From Novosphingobium sp. SG919 (GTDB taxonomy: Bacteria; Pseudomonadota; Alphaproteobacteria; Sphingomonadales; Sphingomonadaceae), in the NCBI RefSeq assembly GCF_012932495.1, contig NZ_JABCNG010000001.1, positions 558,001 to 622,000 on the forward strand: a stretch of DNA of 64,000 nt. Reading direction: 5' to 3'. The number at the start of each line of letters is the position of its first letter. The stretch's first letter is position 1. Of the stretch, positions 28,031-28,732 are shown piece after piece. A model generated the notes under the pieces. That model had not been told where the DNA came from and searched no databases. It saw only the letters and a list, made by a program, of their open reading frames with translations. Position numbers and translations under genes: made by a program.

Positions 28031-28068
28031 CCCCCTCCTCTTCGCAAGGAGGGGGTTGGGGGTGTTGG
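28031..28068. repeat. Family-4 hairpin after aroG, possible terminator
   Basis: A 9-bp stem CCCCCTCCT/AGGAGGGGG with a 7-base loop (CTTCGCA) followed by TTGGGGGTGTTGG. It is related to 15511-15561. It may end the aroG transcript although there is no T-run. Confidence 0.65.
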
Positions 28069-28092
28069 AAGCGTGGCGCCACGCTTCCAACA
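28063..28092. repeat. Perfect 30-bp palindrome
   Basis: TGTTGGAAGCGTGGC is immediately followed by its exact reverse complement, with no loop. It abuts the first REP-like palindrome. Part of the arm (GCTTCCAA) recurs just before the third palindrome at 28542-28549. Confidence 0.95.
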
Positions 28093-28096
28093 AGCA

Positions 28097-28173
28097 GGAC
28101 CCCGGATCAAGTCCGGGGTGACGAGCAAAAAACACATGTATTCCATCGTCACCCCGGACTTGATCCGGGGTCC
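28097..28173. repeat. REPIN-like inverted pair of palindromes, upstream of GIY-YIG gene
   Basis: Two 28-base copies in inverted orientation at 28097-28124 and 28146-28173, exact reverse complements of each other, with a 21-base spacer. Each copy has a core hairpin CCCCGGA-TCAAG-TCCGGGG and an asymmetric TGACGA tail that points inward. Two unit hairpins facing each other is the layout of REP doublets (REPINs). Confidence 0.95.
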
Positions 28174-28239
28174 CGCTTTTCTTCTGAATCGGCCGCAACT
28201 CGCGTTGACGACGCTCGCGTATCTACGTGACGATGCACC

Positions 28240-28539
28240 ATGGATCGCGAAATCTACGGCGGTTGGGTCTACATGATGGCAGACCGCTATCGCGGCACTC
28301 TGTACATTGGCGTGACAGCGGATCTCGCCCGCCGGGTCATGCAGTATCGCGGTGGCGCCGGCTCTGATTTCTGCGCACGCCATGGCTTGCATCGCTTGGT
28401 CTGGGCGGAGCGAGGCGAGCCGATCGACGCGTGCATTGCGCACGAAAAGCGGTTGAAGCGCTGGCGTCGGGAATGGAAGTTTGCGTTGGTGGAAAAGGCC
28501 AATCCTGATTGGGAGGACCTGTTTCCGCTGCTGGTGTGA
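28240..28539 (+). CDS. Single-domain GIY-YIG nuclease
   Basis: 99 residues, a full small GIY-YIG domain and nothing else. GIY corresponds to GWVYMM (residues 8-13), YIG to TLYIGVT (about residues 20-26), then ARRVMQYR with the conserved Arg, and the metal-binding Glu in HEKRLKRWRREWK. Members of this YhbQ/UvrC-like group are very common in Alphaproteobacteria but their role is not settled. The gene is bracketed by two inverted pairs of near-identical palindromes, an arrangement that recalls REP elements with their dedicated transposases. No Shine-Dalgarno is obvious before the ATG. Confidence 0.92.
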   Translation: MDREIYGGWVYMMADRYRGTLYIGVTADLARRVMQYRGGAGSDFCARHGLHRLVWAERGEPIDACIAHEKRLKRWRREWKFALVEKANPDWEDLFPLLV

Positions 28540-28557
28540 CAAGCTTCCAAAACAGCG

Positions 28558-28638
28558 GGACCCCGGGTCAAGCCCGGGGTGACGTTGGTAGAGAAAAGAC
28601 CGAAGATTTCTCGTCACCCCGGACCTGATCCGGGGTCC
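28558..28638. repeat. REPIN-like inverted pair of palindromes, downstream of GIY-YIG gene
   Basis: Copies at 28558-28584 (core CCCCGGG-TCA-AGCCCGGGG) and 28611-28638 (core CCCCGGACCTGATCCGGGG) in inverted orientation with a 26-base spacer. They differ from the upstream pair at only a few positions, some of them compensatory within the stem. The first is preceded by GCTTCCAAAACAGC, similar to the flank of the upstream pair. Confidence 0.95.
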
Positions 28639-28732
28639 CGCTTCCTGATGAAAACGCTGCGCCAGCGACTTTTCCGGGGACATCGCCACACCGCCACTTC
28701 CCCCCGGCCGCCCCATCGCGCACAACGCGGGC

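Follow-up and report, generated by a model that had tools for sequence, protein, structure and literature searches.

A minimal GIY-YIG nuclease gene between inverted CGTC-type REPs in Novosphingobium: a candidate enzyme for its own repeat

REPINs, which are moved by RAYTs, and MITEs, which are moved by transposases, are non-autonomous units. RAYTs are HUH/Y1 transposases whose cognate REPs carry GTAG tags. In alphaproteobacteria, few short repeats are as common as REPs with a CGTC tag, which are also present in other phyla. A family of small GIY-YIG enzymes termed Ssn, first recognized in Neisseria, was reportedly characterized by Chenal et al. in 2025 as site-specific single-strand nucleases that cut cognate repeats; these repeats are said to occur in hundreds of copies, the study reportedly treats cleavage and transformation, and the Neisseria meningitidis enzyme is said to modulate transformation through its repeat. 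The passages that describe the CGTC REP superfamily (Di Nocera et al. 2013, PMC3733652) define it by a CGTC end tag, an 8-bp stem opening with an A-T pair, a 5-nt loop and the formation of dimers, with tails of which most, but not all, fit CCA. According to the same passages, CGTC REPs are mainly alphaproteobacterial (Novosphingobium aromaticivorans and other sphingomonads are named), are unassociated with transposase genes and apparently lack a dedicated transposase; GIY-YIG genes are unmentioned there (PMC3733652). Likewise, the word 'nuclease' does not occur in the available portion of a 2025 REP survey (PMC12306157).

The stretch analyzed here (the window, 64,000 nucleotides of the Novosphingobium sp. 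SG919 genome) contains a gene for a 99-residue, single-domain GIY-YIG nuclease (28240-28539, forward strand), which belongs to the GIY-YIG superfamily based on its match to the PF01541 profile (35.1 bits, cut-off 22.6, E = 1.7e-8). The gene is directly bounded by an inner upstream REP (28147-28178, forward strand; CGTC tag 28147-28150, hairpin 28151-28171, gene-facing tail CCCGCTT to 28178) and an inner downstream REP (28554-28584, reverse strand; tail 28554-28559, hairpin 28560-28580, GACG tag 28581-28584), with both tails inward and both CGTC tags outward, to give a complete cassette of the form CGTC-REP / gene / REP-GACG (28147-28584, forward strand). Extra outer copies of the REP are located upstream (28092-28124, reverse strand) and downstream (28610-28643, forward strand), each with its tag towards the tag of its inner neighbor, and it is the resulting tag-to-tag doublets that distinguish the window locus from the usual unit. 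The palindrome pattern has 8 matches in the window (four sites on both strands), every one at the GIY-YIG locus, compared with a mean of 0.65 and a maximum of 6 in 100 shuffles. The profile match and the pattern scan thus confirm what had been described from the sequence, namely a gene of this kind bracketed by two palindrome doublets. The arms of the upstream doublet are 97% complementary over 33 nt and are, as claimed, exact inverted copies over the 28 nt originally named, while the downstream pair, said to have a like layout with a few changes, has arms that are 90% complementary over 31 nt and members that are 90% and 97% similar to their upstream counterparts. Folding as single-stranded DNA gives -40.9 kcal/mol for the upstream doublet (z = -12.2 versus shuffles) and -36.1 kcal/mol for the downstream doublet (z = -8.3). 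The shared sequence GCTTCCAA does precede both doublets of the window, but the idea that it is a component of the element is unsupported; it is absent beside the other dispersed REP copies examined and is therefore taken as local. A GC-rich, hairpin-like stretch at 28031-28056, directly 3' of a DAHP synthase gene, is a possible terminator of that gene.

The window REP shares with the CGTC superfamily the tag, the 8-bp stem opening with an A-T pair, the 5-nt loop, the inverted dimers and the dispersion. In contrast to the usual CCA, its tail is TCCCGCTT; since CCA fits most but not all CGTC REP tails, the window tail is regarded as a variant. Most of the dispersed copies carry TCCNGC. The host genome contains 25 exact copies of the 14-nt REP core, 16 within 12 doublets and 9 standing alone, and 24 matches to the extended window-type REP pattern. 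Of the doublets, 9 have the partner at the tail and 3 at the head. Similar to a RAYT/REPIN system, a small enzyme gene is flanked by a REP that is dispersed as inverted doublets. In contrast to such a system, the enzyme is a GIY-YIG rather than an HUH/Y1 protein, the tag is CGTC rather than GTAG, and a search of the host genome with the Y1 transposase profile PF01797 gave no match (5 of 14 control genomes were positive), so that a RAYT or IS200-like enzyme of the host genome is rejected as the mobilizer. In our judgement there is an even chance that the locus is a minimal mobile cassette, in which the nuclease acts on its own cognate REPs and an unrelated enzyme plays a RAYT-like role. It could be argued instead that a RAYT or another transposase spreads the REPs and that GIY-YIG genes have ended up between them through chance or insertion tolerance, as REPs are also found away from the gene and in genomes without it. 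This reading is at odds with the negative PF01797 search of the host genome and with the 2013 survey, which, in the passages cited above, ties no transposase gene to CGTC repeats (PMC3733652). The GIY-YIG matches in the host genome number 4: UvrC, the window gene, a YhbQ-like domain within a 334-residue open frame (L027), and a second small GIY-YIG gene of 103 aa (L026) bracketed by a different CGTC palindrome of the ATTCCCGC type.

A gonococcal relative from the same clade as the window protein (clade B, below) is 42% identical to it over 86 aa (E = 2e-26, a single comparison) and has CGTC palindromes on both sides. The window system resembles the reported Ssn family in that the protein is homologous to a Neisseria gene and the cognate repeat is multi-copy (25 cores). 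The sequence-only reading had stated that no system of this kind was firmly described. This is probably out of date: taken together with the Ssn family reported by Chenal et al. in 2025, the gonococcal relative and its palindromes suggest that the pairing of enzyme and repeat is probably known already and that the window locus is a new instance. A literature search, with many journals outside its coverage, found among the papers listed none linking GIY-YIG genes to REPs, nor any account of the relation between cassette and gene-less doublet, of the palindrome family of clade A described below, or of a GIY-YIG answer to the missing CGTC REP transposase.

The window protein is invariant at Y11, Y22, G24, T26, R32, E57, E69, K70 and N88, with Y11, Y22, R32, E69 and N88 invariant in 25 and in 19 aligned relatives; we take these two Tyr, Arg, Glu and Asn to be the GIY-YIG active-site residues. 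Position 36 is Tyr in the window protein and His in 129 of the 130 readable clade-B proteins (two of 132 were unreadable). The UvrC of the host genome also has Tyr at the equivalent position, so Tyr36 may be compatible with activity. The predicted structure (pLDDT 92.1) keeps the fold, with UPF0213 1zg2 as the best match (E = 4e-3, none lower) and a resemblance to SLX1 and UvrC, while profile matches include 1zg2 (E = 2.2e-8), 1ywl (4e-7), UvrC 1yd6 (8.3e-4) and SLX1 (0.012). The window protein therefore has the same domain as the UPF0213/YhbQ-like proteins and SLX1 (PDB 1zg2, 1ywl, 7cq2), but none of the deposited relatives has a closely similar sequence, and unlike the window locus, the canonical UPF0213 loci L312, L313 and L315 have no flanking inverted repeat. 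An NCBIfam search gave no match near the cut-offs.

The association between gene and palindrome was probed in 99 genomes of the same family (Sphingomonadaceae) by a PF01541 profile search. The loci taken comprised 4 of the host genome, 30 returned and the next 60 listed (94 in total), from which a UvrC (L028) and a locus with an internal stop (L054) were dropped. Among the matches listed, the remaining 92 GIY-YIG loci split into two clades (SH-aLRT 100 each), clade A with 40 loci and clade B, which includes the window gene, with 52. A palindrome of one of six types is present within 130 bp of the gene at all 52 clade-B loci listed, on both sides at 41; the strict forms are found in 4/52 distal stretches and near 5/40 clade-A loci, and the looser, label-assigning forms in 14/52 and 12/40, respectively. 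The six types were defined after inspection of the same clade-B flanks. A tag-free test found the two flanks to be mutually inverted repeats at 46 of the 52 listed clade-B loci, compared with 4/52 distal stretches and 0 when shuffled. Similar results were obtained with the best 80 of at least 586 confirmed stretches from a profile search of genome contigs, whose record titles include alpha-, beta-, gamma- and deltaproteobacteria, Bacteroidetes, Omnitrophota, candidate phyla and others: a tagged hairpin lies no more than 200 bp from the gene in 65 of these 80 (distal 4/71) and 52/77 pass the inverted-repeat test (distal 2/71). Within the genus, all 15 loci whose flanks are complete have a palindrome next to the gene (distal 1/15), five loci having been left out because a contig end or an indel altered their length. 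Other gene copies without nearby palindromes had been named as one part of the condition that would undo the link, and these genus loci show the opposite. Chance adjacency is rejected by the distal, shuffled, clade and held-out controls (for the last, see clade A below). The link between GIY-YIG gene and palindrome is real, clade-specific and present in many phyla, and the palindrome type tracks the protein lineage. A search of phage sequences with the clade-B query gave no match. Some clade-B genes are located at recurrent places in different genera (L050, L053, L071, L088, L094 and L096; L055, L077, L101 and L119). By flank reading, these places are the sucD-sucA and sucB-lpd intervals; the palindromes there lack the usual CGTC tag, and the genes are perhaps domesticated copies.

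Clade A consists of YhbQ-like single-domain GIY-YIG genes (in the range L030-L112, e.g. L045, L067 and L032) mostly adjoined by palindromes of the TCCTGAGCTTGTCGAAGGA kind. No CGTC hairpin is found beside any of the 40 clade-A loci among the matches listed, from which it was thought that clade A is palindrome-free. This proved too narrow, as the tag-free test found inverted repeats beside 18/40 of these listed loci and a second palindrome family was then identified. The motif GAGC-N(2-5)-GTCGA, picked on the same loci where it was counted, occurs near 37/40 clade-A and 3/52 clade-B loci among the matches listed and in 3/40 distal clade-A stretches. In held-out, class-level loci the motif is near 9/28, with 7 among the 20 best-scoring (L292-L311), because others carry a variant; in the tag-free test, 18 of the 25 uncut held-out loci pass, compared with 1 distal stretch and 0 when shuffled. 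Loci failing the inverted-repeat test are the three canonical UPF0213 loci named above as well as L300, L305, L307 and L318. The C-termini of several clade-A proteins appear to be translated palindrome (e.g. PSTSL).

The relationship between palindrome type and protein was also examined within clade B. The six types require 13 changes on the clade-B tree, compared with a mean of 28.1 and a minimum of 23 in 300 sets of shuffled labels. The nearest protein in another genome shares the palindrome type at 37 of the 52 clade-B loci listed, against a background of 591/2566 for other cross-genome pairs and 5/17 for paralogues within one genome. Palindrome type goes with protein lineage, not with genome, and several different cassettes coexist within one genome, each with its own REP. 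Within the genus, inspection by eye pairs window-type proteins with CCCCGGGCTTGACCCGGGG and the tail TCCCGC, two of their close cousins with the tail TGAGGCTT, pNL2-type proteins with CCCCGTGCTTGACACGGGG, and others with CCCCCGCGAAGGCGGGGG or a mixed pair. The matching of palindrome types to clade and lineage is a further argument against a separate transposase as the agent that spreads the REPs. Somewhat short of an even chance, and thus tentatively, we propose a broader reading in which small single-domain GIY-YIG proteins would be the missing dedicated enzymes of non-RAYT REPs throughout bacteria, each subclade owning one palindrome type (the CGTC superfamily in clade B, a second superfamily of the TCCTGAGCTTGTCGAAGGA kind in clade A), with doublets as the gene-less, MITE-like form of the cassette of ~440 bp; this would be a second mobile system of enzyme and REP, unrelated to RAYT/REPIN.

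The arrangement of REPs relative to one another offers insight into the unit itself. Among the places listed, the tail-to-tail arrangement accounts for 76 of the close REP pairs, the tag-to-tag one for 6 and the direct one for 1, and 7 of the 8 tail-inward pairs spaced 250-800 bp enclose a GIY-YIG gene. The eighth (L340, G138:C381) surrounds a small, unrelated gene whose start resembles a signal peptide, a possible passenger. This one unrelated gene favors the idea that GIY-YIG genes are hitchhikers between REPs moved by another enzyme, and the 7 of 8 gene-sized pairs listed that enclose a GIY-YIG gene argue against it; we consider that idea highly improbable and already largely refuted. The 14 doublets examined from genome G031 carry a CGTC tag at each outer end and have interiors of ~50 bp that are mostly alike, the eight measured being 102-107 bp long; the GIY-YIG gene of G031 itself is split between two frames. 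As the doublet layout is that of the cassette, the common ~100-bp doublet and the cassette are one layout without and with the gene; the ~100-bp REP pairs, which are commoner than the cassette, are the CGTC-REP / gene / REP-GACG unit minus the gene.

If the locus is a minimal mobile cassette, its mechanism would be as follows. The cassette would consist of a small GIY-YIG gene and the cognate CGTC-type REPs that enclose it in inverted orientation with tags outward. First, the nuclease would bind the REP hairpin when the latter is extruded or single-stranded, as during replication, uptake or repair. Next, it would nick the DNA adjacent to the CGTC tag, releasing a strand with REPs at its ends that would be copied or joined into a new site. 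Finally, the gene-less doublets would be non-autonomous derivatives moved by the same enzyme, comparable to MITEs with their transposases and REPINs with their RAYTs. Nicking and mobilization of REPs by the GIY-YIG nuclease are thus what we infer from the arrangement, and CGTC-type REPs probably have a dedicated enzyme that helps their spread.

Comparison of equivalent sites between relatives shows cassettes, and gene-less doublets as well, to be present or absent. The window-type gene occurs in 8/59 genus genomes, two of these copies being broken or partial, and it is never beside the DAHP synthase gene in the 7 genus genomes besides the host; five of these 7 loci were compared and have only the gene and REPs in common with the window neighborhood. 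G144, which is the nearest relative at the DAHP locus (90%), has no cassette at that position and gave no match in a search with the window protein, and no GIY-YIG motif was found downstream of DAHP synthase at the 11 loci besides the window (12 parsed of 30). In seven Sphingobium megaplasmid records, a cassette whose REPs and tails are of the window type lies between fnrL and a response-regulator gene (an fnrL/fixJ-type site). Its product is a cousin of the window protein (68% identity over 93 aa); the alignment covered four of the seven sequences, and the remaining three are 100% identical over the region (BLAST). The TYG73 copy of the gene is broken. In TYG74 and TYG64, the fnrL site is occupied by a solo REP with a tag at either end, and in TYG65 by a different palindrome; TYG72 and S. 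herbicidovorans have no recognizable REP there. At another site, shared by two species (G109 and G156; L321 and L324), the cassette is in opposite orientations, which may reflect inversion between the REPs or independent insertion. Four G031 doublet sites were examined in two congeners: two are without the doublet in both (one also missing neighboring bases), one is occupied in G157, and the fourth could not be read. No target-site duplications are readable, and the junctions at the G031 sites are ragged.

These comparisons bear on two further explanations. In the first, the nuclease would act as a homing enzyme that cleaves REPs already in place, or their tag, with its gene then copied in at the cut; the REPs would be targets interrupted by the gene and not moving ends, and the doublets would spread by other means. 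Such behavior would fit a fold described as a classical homing-endonuclease fold in the part of the literature consulted (PMC1564403), the doubly tagged solo palindrome of TYG74 and TYG64 versus REP-gene-REP in the seven other records, and the opposite orientations of the G109 and G156 cassettes. The solo REP may be a target or a scar, however, as deletion between repeated arms also yields a solo REP, and the case for a gene interrupting its own target comes from one plasmid site, where solo REP and REP-gene-REP are both seen and either may have come first. Additionally, gene-less doublets share the exact layout of the cassette and homologous interiors of ~50 bp and therefore look like copies of a unit, and we regard homing as unlikely. 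In the second explanation, which we consider improbable, the enzyme is a resident host nuclease that processes REP hairpins of single-stranded DNA by trimming or cutting and so controls uptake, recombination or replication; nothing spreads, and REPs near the gene are kept as autoregulatory targets. The conservation of the catalytic residues would suit this role, as would the effect on transformation reported for the N. meningitidis Ssn and those clade-B genes that keep to one location across several genera, apparently flanked by suc genes, where the palindromes are altered. A resident function does not sit well with cassettes that are present or absent at equivalent sites and at differing sites in congeners, nor with several cassettes per genome, each with its own REP.

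The mobile-cassette reading was also considered in terms of copy number. REP and clade-B gene counts correlate across the 99 genomes (Spearman 0.60), with a median of 13.5 REPs in the 66 genomes with a clade-B gene versus 1 in the 33 without. This raw correlation is inflated because the REPs flanking the genes are counted; after subtraction of four REPs per gene the Spearman coefficient is 0.24 (p = 0.016) and the presence/absence comparison gives p = 0.08. The expectation that copy number tracks the gene is therefore borne out in the raw counts and only weakly after correction, and copy number is weak as proof that the REPs depend on the gene. Among genomes with at least 20 REPs, 24/26 have a clade-B gene, while the correlation of REP count with clade-A gene count is 0.28. 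There are REP-rich genomes without an intact clade-B match (G045 with 176 REPs, G024 with 53), and 7 of the 66 genomes with a clade-B gene have zero REPs of the pattern. Equal abundance of the palindromes in genomes lacking the gene had been raised as the other part of the condition under which the link would be chance. Within the genus, the extended window-type REP is present in 8/8 genomes with a window-type gene versus 18/51 without (p = 0.0007), but some genomes without the gene have many copies (17 in G102, 13 in G140), so that the answer is mixed.

A nuclease gene inside the CGTC repeat unit is a named, testable candidate for the missing dedicated enzyme. The match of palindrome type to protein subclade offers many natural enzyme-target pairs with which to learn how a 100-residue nuclease reads a hairpin. 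If mobilization is true, enzyme-driven REP doublets arose at least twice, from unrelated nuclease folds. Two other repeat arrangements were observed. Near L138, L144 and L049 there are half-REP ladders (CGTCATTCCC... repeated, with the second arm missing), which might record repeated aborted copying. At L281, on pSymB of Sinorhizobium meliloti, the clade-B gene adjoins a series of long mosaic palindromic modules, which recall the rhizobial RIME elements.
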